Below are positions 1-5,812 of a stretch of DNA of 7,413 nucleotides, piece by piece. The stretch covers positions 1 through 7,413 of the forward strand of contig JAGUYV010000191.1 in the NCBI GenBank assembly GCA_020061125.1, in the 5' to 3' direction. Position numbers and translations under genes: made by a program. Position 1 is the first letter of the stretch; each line of letters starts with the position of its first letter. Origin of the DNA: a bacterium (lineage in GTDB: Bacteria > UBP15 > UBA6099 > DSWB01). A model generated the notes under the pieces. The model was not told where the DNA came from and made no database searches. It saw only the letters and a list, made by a program, of their open reading frames with translations.

Positions 1-414
1 GCGCACAACCCGGAGTTCGCGGGCTTTGTCGAAGACTGCGGCCTGGATGTGGTGTTCGAGGACATGTGCACGGGCAGCCGGTTTTTCGATGTGTCCGTGG
101 GCAACGCCGCGGATCCGCTGCTCGACCTGGCCCGGGGCTACCTCCAGAAGCCGCCCTGCGCACGCATGATGACCATGGACAAACGCGCCGAAGCCATGAT
201 TGACCGCGCCCGCGCCATGGGCGCTCGCGGCGTGGTGCACCACGCGCTCAAGTTCTGCGACACCGTGCTGTACGACGCGCCCGAACTCAAGCGCCGCCTC
301 GAAGCCGCGGGCCTGCGCACCCTGTTCCTCGAAGGCGACGGAACCCTCGGCTCCATGGGCCAGCTAAAAACGCGCATTCAGGCGTTCGCCGAAGTGCTCG
401 GCGACGATTTGTGA
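1..414 (+). CDS. 2-hydroxyacyl-CoA dehydratase family subunit, C-terminal part (5' end outside window)
   Basis: The reading frame is open from base 1, so the start lies upstream; 137 residues are visible. They match the C-terminal end of the HgdB/FldC/BcrC-type subunits, which carry a [4Fe-4S] cluster and eliminate water from 2-hydroxyacyl-CoA by a ketyl-radical route after ATP-driven one-electron activation, or in the benzoyl-CoA reductase branch reduce the ring. Visible marks are a KFCD motif (Cys86 of the visible part, the usual third cluster cysteine) and the family ending E-x-D-x-x-x-x-x-x-GQ-x-x-TRI-x-AF. Cys23 (DMCTGSR) and Cys53 (PPCAR) may also be structural. The next family member starts 16 bases downstream, so the two probably form the heterodimer. 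The substrate cannot be read from this fragment. Family assignment is strong; dehydratase versus reductase is open. Confidence 0.88.
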   Translation, partial: AHNPEFAGFVEDCGLDVVFEDMCTGSRFFDVSVGNAADPLLDLARGYLQKPPCARMMTMDKRAEAMIDRARAMGARGVVHHALKFCDTVLYDAPELKRRLEAAGLRTLFLEGDGTLGSMGQLKTRIQAFAEVLGDDL

Positions 415-430
415 AAGGACCGGAGAAACC

Positions 431-1636
431 ATGTCCATGCTCGAAAAATATTTCGCGGATCTCGAAGCCGCGCTCAAGAACAAGCTCGATGAAAAAACCA
501 CGGCGCGCCGCCGGTTCATCTACGAGATCGCGCGCATCGGCGGCCGCATGTTCGATCGCGAATGGGCCTCGGCGTGGACCACGGTGTTCGTGCCGTTTGA
601 AATCCTGTACGCCATGGGCGTGGCCGGGAATTTCATCGAGTTCGTGGGCGCCATGCTCGCGGGCAACGGCATGAGCCGCCCGTTCTTCGAGAAAGCCGAA
701 GCCGAGGGCTTCTCCACCGACAGTTGCTCGTATCACCGCACCATCATCGGCGCCGCGCGCCAGGGCATGTTCCCGAAACCGGACTTGCTCATCGGCTCCA
801 GCTTCCCCTGCGACGGCGGGGTCAAGGCCCTGCTGCGTGTGGGCGAAATTTACGACAAACCCGTGTTTCTGCTGCATACGCCCTACGAGCAAACCCCGGA
901 ATCCCTGGACTATCTGGTGAAGCAGTACCGCGCCATGATCGCGCACATCACGGAACAAACCGGCCGCACTCTGGACCCGGACAAACTGCGCCGCGCCGTG
1001 CACAACAACAATGTGGCGCGCGAACACATCGTGCAGGCGCTGGACCTGTGCAAAAACGCGCCCAGCCCCGCGCGCAGCGACGACTGGAAAAACTTCATCA
1101 TCTATGTGCTGCTCGGCGGTGACGACGCCGCGGTGGATGTCGCCAGAATATTTCACGAGGAATTCCGGCACAAGCACGAACACGGAATCCCCGGCCTGCC
1201 GGGCGAGAAATACCGCCTGCTCTGGATTCAGAACCGCATCCAGTTCAAGAACAACCTGATCCGGAAACTCGAGGAAGACTACAAGGCCAATGTGGTCATA
1301 GACGAGTTGAACTACATTTTCTGGGAACCGATGGACGAGTCCGCGGACCCGCTCGAGGAGCTTGCCAGGCGGCAACTCGCGCACCCGCTCATCGGGCCGG
1401 TGGAGCGCCGCCTGGACCTGTTGAAGAAGATGGCCGTGGAGTTCGGCTGCCACGGCGCGGTCAACCCCTCGCACTGGGGCTGCCGCCAGAGCGGCGGCGC
1501 GCGCAACATGTTCAAGGAAACCCTGGCCCAGGCGGGCGTGCCCGTAATCCACCTCGATGTGGATTGCGTGGACGAGCGCAATTTCTCCGAGGGCCAGTTG
1601 CTCACGCGCCTGGAAGCGTTCATGGAAATGCTGTGA
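431..1636 (+). CDS. 2-hydroxyacyl-CoA dehydratase family subunit (HgdA/HgdB/BcrB-like)
   Basis: A complete 401-residue protein with the expected length for the family. A GGAG box at 422-425 sits 5 bases before the ATG, which supports this start. Family marks in order: PFEILYAMG near residues 55-63 (the conserved P-x-E-I-x-x-A-x-G segment), Cys99 (DSCSYHR), Cys127 (SFPCDGG), and the C-terminal HWGCRQ with Cys351, followed by EGQLLTRLEAF. Cys99, Cys127 and Cys351 are the likely three cysteine ligands of a [4Fe-4S] cluster with one open site, as known for 2-hydroxyisocaproyl-CoA dehydratase; Cys340 lies nearby. It probably pairs with the preceding subunit and receives an electron from the activase encoded downstream. 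Because the cluster cysteines are retained it should be catalytic rather than degenerate. Substrate unknown; an atypical benzoyl-CoA-reductase-like function cannot be excluded. Confidence 0.9.
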   Translation: MSMLEKYFADLEAALKNKLDEKTTARRRFIYEIARIGGRMFDREWASAWTTVFVPFEILYAMGVAGNFIEFVGAMLAGNGMSRPFFEKAEAEGFSTDSCSYHRTIIGAARQGMFPKPDLLIGSSFPCDGGVKALLRVGEIYDKPVFLLHTPYEQTPESLDYLVKQYRAMIAHITEQTGRTLDPDKLRRAVHNNNVAREHIVQALDLCKNAPSPARSDDWKNFIIYVLLGGDDAAVDVARIFHEEFRHKHEHGIPGLPGEKYRLLWIQNRIQFKNNLIRKLEEDYKANVVIDELNYIFWEPMDESADPLEELARRQLAHPLIGPVERRLDLLKKMAVEFGCHGAVNPSHWGCRQSGGARNMFKETLAQAGVPVIHLDVDCVDERNFSEGQLLTRLEAFMEML

Positions 1637-1644
1637 GGAAGGAA

Positions 1645-1759
1645 AAAGCGGAACACGAATTAGCACGGATGAAAACAGGATTCACACGAATTCCAAATGA
1701 CATCATTGATTGAATTCGTGCCAATTCGCATGTATTCGTGTCCATTCGTGATCCGCTTT
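1645..1759. repeat. Long imperfect inverted repeat of ATTCGTG type
   Basis: The two arms are 1645-1693 and 1712-1759. They start AAAGCGGA and end TCCGCTTT, and the inner ends are GAATTC on both sides. Most of the roughly 48 positions pair, with scattered mismatches and one length difference. Each arm contains several CACGAAT/ATTCGTG units (for example 1655-1661, 1686-1691, 1715-1720, 1735-1740, 1745-1750). A smaller hairpin, AATGA/TCATT, sits in the loop (1696-1707). From memory, palindromic ATTCGTG repeats of this kind are dispersed in intergenic regions of several bacterial phyla. The element occupies most of the 160-base gap between the dehydratase subunit and the activase, so it would be part of the transcript and could form a large RNA hairpin. 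There is no U tract after the stem, so it does not look like an ordinary intrinsic terminator. Confidence 0.85.
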
Positions 1760-1782
1760 AAGAATCGCCAATCTCTTTCTGC

Positions 1783-1790
1783 AAGGGAGA
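1783..1790 (+). promoter_or_regulatory. Ribosome binding site deciding a TTG start
   Basis: AAGGGAGA lies 6 bases before the TTG at 1797. It selects this non-ATG codon as the start of the activase. The resulting N-terminus (HYAGIDIGS) is exactly where the family normally begins. Confidence 0.7.
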
Positions 1791-1796
1791 CGGACT

Positions 1797-2585
1797 TTGC
1801 ACTACGCGGGAATTGACATCGGATCATTGAGCGCGGACACGGTCATCGTGGACGAACAGGGCAAAATGGTTGCGTATTCCATTCTGCCCACGGGCGCGAA
1901 CAGCATGGTATCCGGCGAGAAATGCTTTAACGAAACTCTTGAAAAAGCGGGCCTCGCAAAACAGGACATCGCGTACATCGTGGCCACGGGCTACGGCCGC
2001 ATCAGCGTGCCGTTCGCGGACAAGGCCATCACCGAGATCACCTGCCACGGCCGCGGCGCATACGCCCTGTTCCCGAACACGCGCACCATCATTGACATCG
2101 GCGGGCAGGACAGCAAGGTCATCAAGCTCGAAAACGGCGGCAAGGTCATAGACTTCGCCATGAACGACAAGTGCGCGGCCGGCACGGGCCGCTTCCTCGA
2201 AGTCATGGCCCGCGCCATGGAAGTCAAACTTCAGGACATGGGGCCGCTCTCGTTCCAGGCAAAAAACAAGATCGAGATCAGCAGCATGTGCACGGTGTTC
2301 GCCGAGAGCGAGGTCATCTCCCTGGTGGCCCAGGCGCAGCCCAAGGAGGACATCATCGCAGGGATTCACGCGGCCATCTGCAGCCGTGTCGGCGGCATGA
2401 TAGACCGCGTGGGCCTTGTGCCCGAGGTCACCATGACCGGCGGCGTGGCCAAGAACACCGGCATGGTGGCCAGCCTGGAAAAACGCACGGGCGTGAAAAT
2501 CAACATCCCCGAAGAGCCGCAAATCGCAGGCGCACTGGGCGCCGCGCTCATCGCGCGCGAACGCGCGCAACAGGAAAAGGAGTGA
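1797..2585 (+). CDS. ATP-dependent activase of 2-hydroxyacyl-CoA dehydratase (HgdC / BadF-BadG-BcrA-BcrD family)
   Basis: A 262-residue member of the ASKHA-fold activases that use ATP hydrolysis to push one low-potential electron into the dehydratase. Start is TTG, supported by the AAGGGAGA box and by family alignment. Visible motifs: GIDIGS near residue 5 (first phosphate loop), DIGGQDSKVI at 100-109 (second phosphate loop), NDKCAAGTGRFLE at 123-135 with Cys126, SSMCTVFAESEV at 162-173 with Cys165, and TGGVAKN at 214-220 (adenosine motif). Cys126 and Cys165 should bridge a single [4Fe-4S] cluster across a homodimer, as the equivalent cysteines do in Acidaminococcus HgdC. Only one activase gene is present, as in 2-hydroxyacyl-CoA dehydratase systems rather than the Thauera-type benzoyl-CoA reductase with two. 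Here it follows the dehydratase subunits instead of preceding them. It ends 6 bases before the next gene. Confidence 0.95.
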   Translation: MHYAGIDIGSLSADTVIVDEQGKMVAYSILPTGANSMVSGEKCFNETLEKAGLAKQDIAYIVATGYGRISVPFADKAITEITCHGRGAYALFPNTRTIIDIGGQDSKVIKLENGGKVIDFAMNDKCAAGTGRFLEVMARAMEVKLQDMGPLSFQAKNKIEISSMCTVFAESEVISLVAQAQPKEDIIAGIHAAICSRVGGMIDRVGLVPEVTMTGGVAKNTGMVASLEKRTGVKINIPEEPQIAGALGAALIARERAQQEKE

Positions 2586-2591
2586 TGCGCA

Positions 2592-3017
2592 ATGACGGTC
2601 CCCGAAAACACTTGGATCATGATGCAGCGGCACATGGGCTACACGGATGATGAAATGGCGCTGTTCCGCAACAACCCCAAAAACGCAGTGGTCATGGAGA
2701 AAGCCTCGGAACTCATGGGCAAGACCCTGGTGTTCGAGGTCGTGGAATCGAGCAACTGCAACAGCGGCCACAAGGTGGGCGATCGCATCGTGTTTGACGG
2801 CGCGGGCAACCTCATCACGAAACTGAACCCCAGGCGCGTGTGCATCTACGCGCTCACCAGCCTGGAGAAACTCATCTTCGCGGCCAATGAACTGATCTAC
2901 GCGGGCGCGGACCCCAACGGCATGTGCTTCAAGGAAACGGGCTGCTTCGATGTGGGCGTGAAATGCGGCGGCTGGGGCCATATCGTGCTGCGCCTCAAGG
3001 TCGAGGACAGGAAATAA
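2592..3017 (+). CDS. Small cysteine-rich protein of unknown function in the dehydratase operon (TIGR04076-like?)
   Basis: A 141-residue soluble protein without signal peptide or membrane segment. The ATG is preceded by AGGAG at 2578-2582, inside the end of the activase gene, so it is co-translated with that operon. It has five cysteines: Cys56 in a CNSGHKVGD segment, Cys84, Cys112, Cys118 and Cys125, the last two in the conserved-looking GCFDVGVKCGGWG stretch. The GHKVGD plus late-cysteine layout reminds me of the small TIGR04076 proteins, but I would not insist on that. A role as an accessory or cluster-handling protein of the dehydratase is inferred only from position. The last 13 codons before the final Lys lie in a 40-bp direct repeat whose other copy is 1.6 kb downstream. 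The present Lys-stop end (AAA TAA) appears to be supplied by an inserted AT-rich segment; the earlier end was probably Ala-stop (GCC TGA). Confidence 0.8.
   Translation: MTVPENTWIMMQRHMGYTDDEMALFRNNPKNAVVMEKASELMGKTLVFEVVESSNCNSGHKVGDRIVFDGAGNLITKLNPRRVCIYALTSLEKLIFAANELIYAGADPNGMCFKETGCFDVGVKCGGWGHIVLRLKVEDRK
2972..3011. repeat. Left copy of perfect 40-bp direct repeat
   Basis: This 40-base stretch starts CTGGGGCCATATCG and ends GAGGACAGG. It is identical base for base to 4581-4620. The bases just outside differ on both sides (G versus T before, A versus G after), so 40 bp is the exact length. It encodes the C-terminal WGHIVLRLKVEDR of the small cysteine-rich protein. It marks the left border of the AT-rich insert, like an attachment site placed in a gene's 3' end. 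Confidence 0.95.
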
Positions 3018-3023
3018 CCGTTC

Positions 3024-3533
3024 TTATCTCTGCTGAAAAAGTCGTTTCTCGATGCTTTCCGGCATTACAAGCTCTCTTCTTTCGACATATGTCGCGAGAT
3101 TCAATAGAATCATATTGCTGACGATGATCCCATAGATAAGAGGATATAGGGCATATCGCAGCGAGGCAAGAAACTCACCGGGCGCAACAATAAACGTTTT
3201 GTTGTACAGTAAATAATTCAATGCAGCGCCCAGCAGCGCGAACGCCCATGCAATTTTGGACATTGTTACAAAAACACTCCGGCTTTTCAGCATTAGTGCA
3301 TGGTCATATACTTCTTTGGAAGAAACATTGGAAAATGCGTCTCTGACTTGAGGAAATCCACATTTGGCCGCTCCCACAAAAACCCCCAACCCTATGATGC
3401 ATAATGAAGGCCAATGAAAAAAGACGCTGAAAAGCGCAATAGGTTGATACTGCACATGGGAGAAACAACGGAACAGCATGAAAAGGCATGACATAATGAT
3501 TCCGGTAATCCTGAACATCCGGCCAACCTGCAT
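3024..3533 (-). CDS. Short MotA/TolQ/ExbB-like membrane protein
   Basis: The chosen start is the ATG at 3533 (169 residues), which has a weak GTGAG box 7 bases upstream. A TTG at 3557 would add eight residues and overlap the previous gene by 8 bases, but has no ribosome binding site. About four hydrophobic segments are visible, near residues 9-22, 42-59, 93-111 and 125-148. The stretch around 39-67 (WPSLCIIGLG ... GFPQVRDAF) resembles the MotA pattern of a P-S-L-hydrophobic helix ending in FP-x-x-x-x-x-x-F. The last helix (ALYPLIYGIIVSNMILLNLA) resembles the final helix of MotA/ExbB channel proteins, where Gly and small residues line the stator. The cytoplasmic loop is much shorter than in real MotA. 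It follows the GYF_2 gene closely and probably makes a complex with it. No MotB or ExbD partner is present. Codon use is AT-rich, as in the rest of the insert. Confidence 0.65.
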   Translation of the reverse strand: MQVGRMFRITGIIMSCLFMLFRCFSHVQYQPIALFSVFFHWPSLCIIGLGVFVGAAKCGFPQVRDAFSNVSSKEVYDHALMLKSRSVFVTMSKIAWAFALLGAALNYLLYNKTFIVAPGEFLASLRYALYPLIYGIIVSNMILLNLATYVERRELVMPESIEKRLFQQR

Positions 3534-3549
3534 GATTCGGCTCACTTTC

Positions 3550-4377
3550 TCAATCAATATTCAACAAGACAAGAAGAAACAAAAGAACAATCGGCACAAG
3601 CGTGTATAATTCTCCGTAAATGTGATGAGTACTTGCCGTATACTTGTCTTTGACGATTTTTGACTGGACGAACAAAAGCAACAGTACAATCGTGGCAATG
3701 ATAAGTCCATAAACGAGATCGATGCTGTTGACCAGGTAAAACAATATGGTGGCTTTTGAAGTTGGTTTGTCCTGGCATATCACAGCAGCAAGTCCAAGAA
3801 GAAAACCCAATGCGCCAACTGACACAGCATTGATGCCAACCGTGCTCATCAGCATCCTGAATAAGCGGCTTTCCTCCGCTGAAGATTGTCTATCCCTAAA
3901 CAAAACGCTTTGAATCATTGGTACTATTCCAAGGAACATACGATCGAAAACGATCAAAGAAATGCTGATGCAGATCCCAATGGTAAAATTTATTGCGGGT
4001 GGATTAAAAATAAAAACTGATATGAATCGGGAAACGCAGTTGATTGGAAAATAGACAAATATACACAATGTGACGATAGACAGGACGCTAAAACAAAAAA
4101 ACAGCCGGAGTATCGTATGCCGGACATATAATCGCGAAGCATTGGCGTCTTCGAATGGATTTGTAGACACAGCATTATTGGCGGCCGCGTATTTGCTGGT
4201 TTTTTGATTTGAGAACTGTTCAATGGAATTTATCTGTTGCCATTCTCCCATGCCATCTCGCCAGATAAGCGTACTCTCGTCAATCCGCCCTCGATTCATA
4301 AGATTCATTATTGCATCAGCGGTCAGCGGGCCGTGACGGTTGCCGTCAATGATAACAAACCAGATCATTTCAGACAT
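3550..4377 (-). CDS. GYF_2 domain protein with MotA/ExbB-like membrane region
   Basis: 275 residues. Residues 5-55 form a GYF_2 domain (WFVIIDGNRHGPLTADAI ... TLIWRDGMGEWQQI), with the usual GP-L, LIWRDGM and EW positions; such domains are thought to bind peptides or act as cytoplasmic adaptors. A polar linker (56-85) follows, then hydrophobic segments near 88-110, 128-150, 183-201, 216-238 and 258-273. The segment 183-240 (NAVSVGALGFLLGLAAVI ... LVYGLIIATIVLLLLF) resembles the two-helix core of MotA/TolQ/ExbB proton channels (G-x-L-G-x-x-x-G-L, then an A/S-x-x-x-x-YGLIIA helix). There is no signal peptide, so the GYF_2 domain should be cytoplasmic. A GGTGA box lies about 7 bases before the ATG. 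The second membrane gene follows within 16 bases. Function is unknown; an ion channel, a transport motor subunit or a defence-type stator are only guesses. Confidence 0.78.
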   Translation of the reverse strand: MSEMIWFVIIDGNRHGPLTADAIMNLMNRGRIDESTLIWRDGMGEWQQINSIEQFSNQKTSKYAAANNAVSTNPFEDANASRLYVRHTILRLFFCFSVLSIVTLCIFVYFPINCVSRFISVFIFNPPAINFTIGICISISLIVFDRMFLGIVPMIQSVLFRDRQSSAEESRLFRMLMSTVGINAVSVGALGFLLGLAAVICQDKPTSKATILFYLVNSIDLVYGLIIATIVLLLLFVQSKIVKDKYTASTHHIYGELYTLVPIVLLFLLVLLNID

Positions 4378-4575
4378 GAAATTGTCACCAAAACGAATAG
4401 TCAGAACATGTTAGATCGAAATTGTATCATAGGGCAAAGACACTGTACAGCACTTTTTACACATTGGGACTGTGACATTAGCAGACGGCGATTCGATCAT
4501 TTGTTTGCCGCGAATCAAGCGCCGTTGCATGCGTGATAATGGGATTAATCATTCGAGGCTAACGGGAGAGGCTGA
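4378..4575. other. AT-rich non-coding lead region of the insert
   Basis: About 200 bases lie between the start of the GYF_2 gene and the orphan gene end. I see no convincing gene here; the open frames on the + strand lack ribosome binding sites and are antisense extensions of neighbouring genes. It probably holds the promoter for the two reverse-strand genes. A short GATTCG/CGAATC inverted pair occurs at about 4490-4516, and no terminal inverted repeat matches the other end of the insert. Confidence 0.5.
4421..4449 (-). promoter_or_regulatory. Possible sigma-70-type promoter for the GYF_2/MotA-like pair
   Basis: On the - strand TGTACA (4449-4444) and TACAAT (4426-4421) are 17 bases apart. 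They match 4 of 6 and 5 of 6 consensus positions. Transcription would start about 35 bases before the ATG at 4377. In AT-rich DNA such matches arise by chance, so this is a weak call. Confidence 0.25.
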
Positions 4576-4626
4576 ATGTTCTGGGGCCATATCGTGCTGC
4601 GCCTCAAGGTCGAGGACAGGGCCTGA
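4576..4626 (+). pseudogene. Orphan 3' end of the small cysteine-rich gene
   Basis: The frame of the duplicated segment reads WGHIVLRLKVEDRA then TGA at 4624-4626, the same C-terminus as the protein encoded at 2592-3017 except for the last residue. An ATG at 4576 is in frame and a purine-rich GGGAGAGG lies just before it, so a 16-residue peptide could in principle be made. Most likely it is simply the displaced original gene end left behind by the insertion. Confidence 0.7.
4581..4620. repeat. Right copy of perfect 40-bp direct repeat
   Basis: Identical to 2972-3011 over all 40 bases. Downstream of this copy the sequence returns to the GC-rich composition of the flanks, and GCC TGA follows in the reading frame of the small cysteine-rich gene. 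This suggests that the right side is the original gene end and that the copy at 2972 was joined to new sequence by the insertion. Confidence 0.95.
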
Positions 4627-4636
4627 CTTACTGGCG

Positions 4637-5812
4637 CTACGGGTTGCGGATAGTGAACAAATCGGCCATGCCGGCTTCGTCCTGCATAAGGGTCTGGATG
4701 CGCTGCTCGTAGGCGCTTGCGGAGAATTGCTCCAGGGGCGCGGGATTCTGGTTGTGAATCGAATACGAATAAATATCCTCGGTGAGCAGGCATTCGAGGC
4801 CGTCGAGGGTTATCGCGTTTTTGCGGGTTGTGATGTTCCAGTTGCTGCATTTGGCGCAGGTGGGATGCTCTGAAAAGTCTCCTTCGAGCAGAGCCTTGCG
4901 CAGCTTCATGTATTTTTCGCCGAGCCAGATGGATTTGAGGGATTGTGTGGCGAGATTGCCCATGTTCATGGTCACGAACCCGTCGGCGCAGCAGGGGTAA
5001 ACATTGCCCTCGACATCAATGTGCATGTGCATCCAGGGATACAGGCAGGGATACCGGGCCGGGGCCGGGAATTTCTTGTTGAGCACCGCGCTGCTGTGAG
5101 GCGAATCCTTGTCCGTGCCCCACTTGAGCAGGCAGACCCTGTGAACGAGCGGCGCCCAGTAGCGCAGAAAGGCGACGGCTTCCGCGGCGTTTGTGTCCTG
5201 AAGAACAAAGTTGAGAATGATCGTGATGCGATCGTGCGGCTCTCGCGCCGCGTTGTATTTGTTGAAGCAGAGAATCGCCTCGATAACTTCGTAGAGCTTG
5301 TCCCTGCTTCTGATGGCGGCGTAAGTGTCTCGCGTGGCGCCGTCAATGCTGATGCGCACCTCCCGGGTTCCGATTTCAAACAGCTCCCGGATTTTTTCCT
5401 CGTTCAGCAAAGTGGCGTTTGTGATGAAGCAAAGCGGATACTTCGCGGCCCTCACGGCGCGGCAGATATCCATGGCGCGCGGGTGGCAGAACAGCTCTCC
5501 GCGCGGCGTGAGGCTCACGGTGGCGTGCGGCGCTTCCCTCGACATAATGTCCAGAATGCGCTCGAACAGCTCAAAATCCATAAGCCCGCCGTGAATGTCC
5601 TGCTTGCGCTGTTCGCTCCACAGGGGGCACATGATGCATTTGAGATTGCAGCGGGACGCGGTGTCTATGTTGATCTGACCCAGCGGCCGCGGCGTGAGAT
5701 GTCCAAATGTTTTCAGTATGATCTCGTCCGGAATCCGAGGAACGCCGGAAATGCCATACTGGAGGAACGGCAACAGATCGAAGCCTCTGGGCGATATATG
5801 GATTTCAGGCAT
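4637..5812 (-). CDS. Radical SAM protein with SPASM-like C-terminal cysteines
   Basis: 391 residues. The radical SAM motif CNLKCIMC (Cys55, Cys59, Cys62) binds the [4Fe-4S] cluster that cleaves S-adenosylmethionine; GE at 105-106 and ISIDG at 154-158 are further core-barrel marks. The C-terminal part has the SPASM-like pattern YPCLYPWMHMHIDVEGNVYPCC (Cys256, Cys274, Cys275), then GNLATQSLKSIW and CAKC (Cys319, Cys322), enough for one auxiliary cluster. Such enzymes often modify peptides, proteins or small precursors; nothing here names the substrate. The ATG at 5812 has no clear ribosome binding site, but there is no better in-frame start before the cluster motif. It lies 41 bases after the hydrolase gene on the same strand, so it is probably in the same operon, and it ends 10 bases from the orphan gene end on the other strand. 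No short precursor peptide gene is visible nearby. Confidence 0.92.
   Translation of the reverse strand: MPEIHISPRGFDLLPFLQYGISGVPRIPDEIILKTFGHLTPRPLGQINIDTASRCNLKCIMCPLWSEQRKQDIHGGLMDFELFERILDIMSREAPHATVSLTPRGELFCHPRAMDICRAVRAAKYPLCFITNATLLNEEKIRELFEIGTREVRISIDGATRDTYAAIRSRDKLYEVIEAILCFNKYNAAREPHDRITIILNFVLQDTNAAEAVAFLRYWAPLVHRVCLLKWGTDKDSPHSSAVLNKKFPAPARYPCLYPWMHMHIDVEGNVYPCCADGFVTMNMGNLATQSLKSIWLGEKYMKLRKALLEGDFSEHPTCAKCSNWNITTRKNAITLDGLECLLTEDIYSYSIHNQNPAPLEQFSASAYEQRIQTLMQDEAGMADLFTIRNP

Follow-up and report, generated by a model that had tools for sequence, protein, structure and literature searches.

A probable insertion of a 1.57-kb AT-rich two-gene segment, bracketed by a 40-bp direct repeat, at the 3' end of a TIGR04076-like gene

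At the 3' end of a small TIGR04076-related gene in a bacterium of the lineage UBP15, an AT-rich segment with two genes of its own is bracketed by a perfect 40-bp direct repeat. That a single insertion took place at this gene end is, in our judgement, very probable. As the likeliest course we tentatively propose that a foreign 1.57-kb two-gene segment was inserted once by site-specific recombination at the gene-end sequence. The insert resembles ordinary small genomic insertions that lack an integrase, and we see no evidence for a new type of element. The analysed sequence (the window, 7,413 nucleotides) is a whole contig of an assembly with 513 contigs, a size of 4.12 Mb and a completeness of 79%. 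About 100 contig stretches, with 870 kb of readable sequence, served as a sample of the same genome.

The insertion would be a clean case of foreign genes gained at a gene end with the host genes undamaged. If integrase-less insertions were common in uncultured anaerobes, they would show membrane-protein cargo spreading without recognisable mobility genes; a single case without relatives adds little beyond the known integrase-less islands.

The repeat pair and its borders

Positions 2972-3011 and 4581-4620 are identical in 40 of 40 bases, in direct orientation, and the adjoining bases differ on both sides (GGCGG before and AAATAA after the left copy, ATGTT before and GCCTGA after the right copy), as the first-pass annotation had noted. 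The left copy (plus strand) consists of one base plus the codons for WGHIVLRLKVEDR and is the coding end of the gene. The right copy (plus strand), which we regard as the displaced end of the target gene, runs on to GCC TGA, again in agreement with that annotation, and is at present either non-coding or contained in a 16-codon ORF beginning at ATG 4576.

For a 7.4-kb sequence of the same composition the chance expectation of such a 40-bp pair is about 5e-17. With up to three mismatches allowed, the 4.12-Mb assembly contains exactly two copies of the 40-mer. No other isolated perfect direct repeat of at least 40 bp with a spacing above 1 kb was found in the sample of about 870 kb, where all remaining repeats of at least 40 bp are short-spaced tandem or intragenic ones. 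Within the 40-mer, the best inverted repeat has 4-bp arms around 6 bp, and the inverted-repeat search found no convincing recombinase core. A Xer-dependent element (IMEX/pdif cassette) would be flanked by a dif-like site, which consists of two 11-bp half-sites and a 6-bp spacer; no resemblance to the dif motif was apparent in the 40-mer. No tRNA or RNA family was found at the insertion site.

The displaced gene end (4576-4626) also has an in-frame ATG TTC before the right copy and a purine-rich stretch, GGGAGAGG. The 16-codon ORF from ATG 4576, MFWGHIVLRLKVEDRA, is probably a chance product. Elsewhere in the window, a lower-GC intergenic stretch at 1650-1760 is rich in 'attcgtg' variants such as ATTCGTGCCAATTCGCATGTATTCGTGTCCATTCGTG, and a related string, ATTCGTGTCCTTGGTGTCC, is present in L133 near 17160. 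In the same genome, perfect short tandem repeats with 7-bp and 6-bp units (L095, 6062-6160, and L142, 13448-13546, respectively) run to the ends of two contigs, and these ends are likely assembly breaks.

The target gene and its neighbours

The target gene (2592..3017, plus strand) encodes a 141-aa TIGR04076-related protein ending in VEDRK*. Its final codon and stop are the first six bases of the insert (AAA TAA), and it ends 6 bp from the stop of the nearest insert gene, orfA. The match to TIGR04076 (E 1.9e-5) scores 25.1 bits, which is below the cut-off of 33. The gene is part of a host cluster in which the small TIGR04076-related protein is encoded together with two D-type subunits of 2-hydroxyglutaryl-CoA dehydratase and a BadF/BcrA-type activase. 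On the other side of the insert lies a convergent, intact radical SAM/SPASM gene (4637..5812, minus strand) of host composition.

When one repeat unit (1609 bp) is removed, a 141-codon gene ending in VEDRA* results, and the earlier statement that the removal restores a gene of the same length holds, with 141 codons for either end. The last codon and stop of this presumed pre-insertion gene, GCC TGA (4621..4626, plus strand), lie 10 bp from the stop of the radical SAM gene, giving a compact and uniformly GC-rich layout. Since the C-terminus of the family varies, with K, A, no residue or a longer extension after VEDR, homologues cannot prove which of AAA TAA and GCC TGA was the original end.

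The TIGR04076-like gene stands beside 2-hydroxyacyl-CoA dehydratase and activase genes, and its homologues, at most 66% identical and sharing invariant Cys, His and Asp positions, were found in Chloroflexota, deltaproteobacteria, spirochaetes, Bathyarchaeota and Lokiarchaeota (window 1-3017; L024-L087). This suggests a widely shared accessory protein.

The AT-rich insert and its genes

The inserted segment (3012..4580, 1569 bp) has a GC content of 42.8%, as against 60.7% in the left and 60.5% in the right flank, which confirms the lower GC content noted earlier between the repeats. The genome mean is 59.9% with a standard deviation of 4.0% (1.5-kb windows of the 870-kb sample), and just 1.1% of these windows are equally AT-rich. 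Likewise, the GC3 values are 46-49% for the insert genes versus 75-86% for the flanking genes. Segmentation that was blind to the repeats delimited an AT-rich island at 3012-4553, which starts directly behind the left copy; the natural end of the gene is also close to that point. At least nine other strongly AT-rich islands are present in the sampled genome, all with edges that lack such a repeat; AT-rich islands are thus common in this genome and a repeat-bracketed border is not.

The insert DNA is apparently foreign. The first-pass annotation had called for a search for other copies of it, and none was found in its own genome, in plasmids, in phages or in viral contigs. The segment has no recognisable terminal inverted repeats: for its terminal 40 and 100 bp, shuffled sequence did equally well (p 0.93 and 0.40).

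Two overlapping minus-strand genes are encoded in the insert. The first, orfA (3024..3557, minus strand), has its stop 12 bp inside the left border and encodes a 177-aa membrane protein. The C-terminal half of this protein is similar to TM3-TM4 of proton-channel proteins of the MotA type; hhalign with two MotA-like proteins gave E 1.2e-6 and a probability of 91%. The other (3550..4377, minus strand) encodes a 275-aa protein with an N-terminal GYF_2 domain (PF14237, E 1.2e-14) followed by transmembrane helices; its membrane part may also be MotA-like, the alignments (E 0.73 and E 0.015) being suggestive. As the GYF gene and orfA overlap by 8 bases, they probably form one operon. No MotB/ExbD-type partner was found within the insert, and single-sequence structure models of both proteins were of low confidence (mean pLDDT 53 and 55).

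Upstream of the GYF gene the insert ends in a non-coding part (4378..4580) in which no phage-type or recombinase remnant was detected. Searches of the insert for recombination, conjugation or mobilisation genes gave no matches in Pfam, PHROGs, NCBIfam or PADLOC; neither insert gene points to mobility. No recombinase, integrase or transposase was found in the window either, in keeping with the earlier observation that the segment has no integrase or transposase.

Polarity and age of the insertion

The target gene is complete after the insertion. The composition of the right flank favours a polarity in which the old end was displaced rightwards; the reverse polarity is compatible with the protein alone, because C-termini vary widely among related loci.

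Full identity of the two copies had been taken to imply a recent event. However, 40 identical bases bound the divergence merely below 7.2% (95%), so that identity alone is no proof of recency. A fairly recent arrival is weakly supported, in agreement with the unadapted codon usage, which gives no date. The nearest genomes belong to other families of the same order, where the target gene is absent and the radical SAM neighbour has distant homologues only. For this reason we infer the empty site from the sequence rather than see it, and it would read GGCGGCTGGGG...GAGGACAGGGCCTGAC.

Possible routes of insertion

In the mechanism that we tentatively prefer, a small circular element would have carried a 40-bp gene-end sequence matching that of the target gene. 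The circle junction of such an element would read GAATGTT, the 40-mer and then AAATAACCG. Site-specific recombination would join the 40-bp copy of the element with that of the gene, AAA TAA, with which the gene now ends, would come from the element, and the old end (the repeat plus GCC TGA) would be shifted to the right border. Because an integrase is absent now, the element would be either an integrase-less, CIME-like remnant (CIME, cis-mobilizable element) or a segment moved by the enzyme of a helper.

Integration is favoured by the presence of the repeats at both edges of the AT-rich island and by the restriction of the 40-mer to these two places. In arbitrary DNA, the chance of an in-frame stop among the first two codons of the insert would be about 10%; such a stop is expected if the element carried a copy of the gene end. 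The size of the insert and its position at the 3' end of a protein gene would also match described CIMEs, albeit the positional argument is weakened by the gap of 10 bp between the two convergent genes, which makes almost any tolerated insertion look like one at a gene end.

That an integrase carried out the insertion we infer only weakly. Just two tyrosine recombinases, which match XerD and XerC best or nearly best, and no serine recombinase were found in the 79%-complete genome. An integron gene cassette would go with an integron integrase and an attC site; both tyrosine recombinases score higher as XerC/XerD than as integron integrase. The search for a helper or relative of the element was negative, and a comparable duplication, which would mark the gene end as a recurrent attachment site, is absent from all related loci examined. 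The 16-bp repeat at one of these loci (L043) lies between the two gene copies of that locus. Of the earlier proposal of an integrative element that rebuilds the gene end, the insertion leaving a complete gene is supported and the enzymology is not. The further suggestion that this is a mobile cassette or a small insertion of a new type finds no support, given the lack of a second copy in its own genome, plasmids or viral contigs, the lack of a comparable duplication at the related gene ends examined and the existence of described CIMEs; we regard an unrecognised class of tiny cargo-only cassettes, carrying a host gene 3' end and inserting via an enzyme acting in trans, as highly improbable.

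The same final structure would result from homology-driven capture without an integrase, in which donor DNA has the same gene end followed by the cassette. A circular donor would enter through a RecA single crossover within the 40 identical bp and a linear one through homology-facilitated illegitimate recombination; either way the old gene end of the recipient would be displaced downstream. No integrase, inverted repeats or recurrent site are needed for this, and none was observed. On the other hand, the donor must have had the identical 40-bp gene end already adjoining AT-rich DNA, and 40 bp is short for a RecA crossover. Both processes are documented (PMC3240628). Reports describe homology-facilitated illegitimate recombination as rare (PMC5361080; PMC3240628), and at T6SS and Rhs loci such events have been named as the source of displaced orphan gene ends (PMC5361080). 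The same genome also has a low-GC island (L193 3863-8091, contig C235) with two short ORFs, each with an Rhs core-domain end near its start followed by a tail, which looks like an array of displaced Rhs tips. The fit of a RecA single crossover, or of displacement facilitated by homology, is almost as good as that of a CIME-like remnant, and we consider capture by homology a possible, if somewhat unlikely, origin. If instead a foreign fragment was captured at a staggered double-strand break, or entered by some transposition of unknown kind, fill-in would have produced the 40 bp as a target duplication, the insert would have brought no copy of the gene end and AAA TAA would be fortuitous. Homology is not required, which makes an AT-rich foreign source easy; a stop within 10 codons has a probability of about 40%, and the C-terminus of the family tolerates extension. 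Usual target duplications are shorter than 40 bp, terminal inverted repeats are absent, and no Ku protein was found in the 79%-complete genome; break capture is less likely on account of the missing Ku and the length of the duplication, and we think this whole reading improbable.

Two further readings dispense with an insertion of this kind. An assembly artefact, in which the AT-rich segment or the right junction was wrongly joined during metagenomic assembly, has to be considered for a genome in 513 contigs that is 79% complete and for a window that is a whole contig. For a false join, however, the AT-rich piece would have to be flanked by the 40-mer at either end, and the 40-mer is found nowhere else in the assembly; moreover, the right junction coincides with the change in composition, and the absence of similar long isolated repeats from 0.87 Mb speaks against a systematic artefact. 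We therefore hold an artefact to be unlikely. Far less plausible is a remnant of a tandem gene duplication, with the right copy as the end of a second, later deleted gene copy. Some genomes do have two adjacent copies of the target-gene family (L040, L043), and an ATG preceded by a purine-rich stretch stands just before the right copy, but tblastn and blastn found no further gene trace upstream of 4581, and a paralogue would hardly keep 40 identical bases while differing sharply on both sides.

Comparison with known systems

Among casposons, some insert at the 3' end of a protein gene, aEF-2, with duplication of the target site (PMC4046053). The present insertion resembles them in both respects, but the insert is far smaller and has no inverted repeats, Cas1 or PolB. 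For a DDE- or casposon-type element, terminal inverted repeats inside the duplication were not found, nor was a transposase or Cas1 in the element, although the latter is compatible with a non-autonomous copy. The T6SS effector/immunity arrays and Rhs tips (PMC5361080) are similar in that a new 3' end with cargo displaces the old end, which is kept downstream. In contrast to those loci, just 40 bp of the old end remains here, the protein is practically unchanged and the gene encodes no effector.

The closest likeness is to CIMEs, integrase-less remnants of ICEs or IMEs with a classical size of 1.2-13 kb, which show that small integrase-less elements at the 3' ends of protein genes have already been described; rpmG, rpsI, fda and rplL have composite islands with CIMEs at their 3' ends (PMC7563491). 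Like a CIME, the insert is a cargo-only segment within this size range that has a direct repeat at each border, and the protein gene at whose 3' end it lies is kept intact; the repeat copies are candidate att sites only. Its sole genes, those for the GYF_2 membrane protein and orfA, include none for recombination, conjugation or mobilisation. It differs in that no related ICE or IME, integrase or tandem element was seen, and its host is remote from the streptococci studied there (PMC7563491). The insert is probably a small integrated segment that has no integrase and works in the manner of a CIME, and it is a candidate member of that class.
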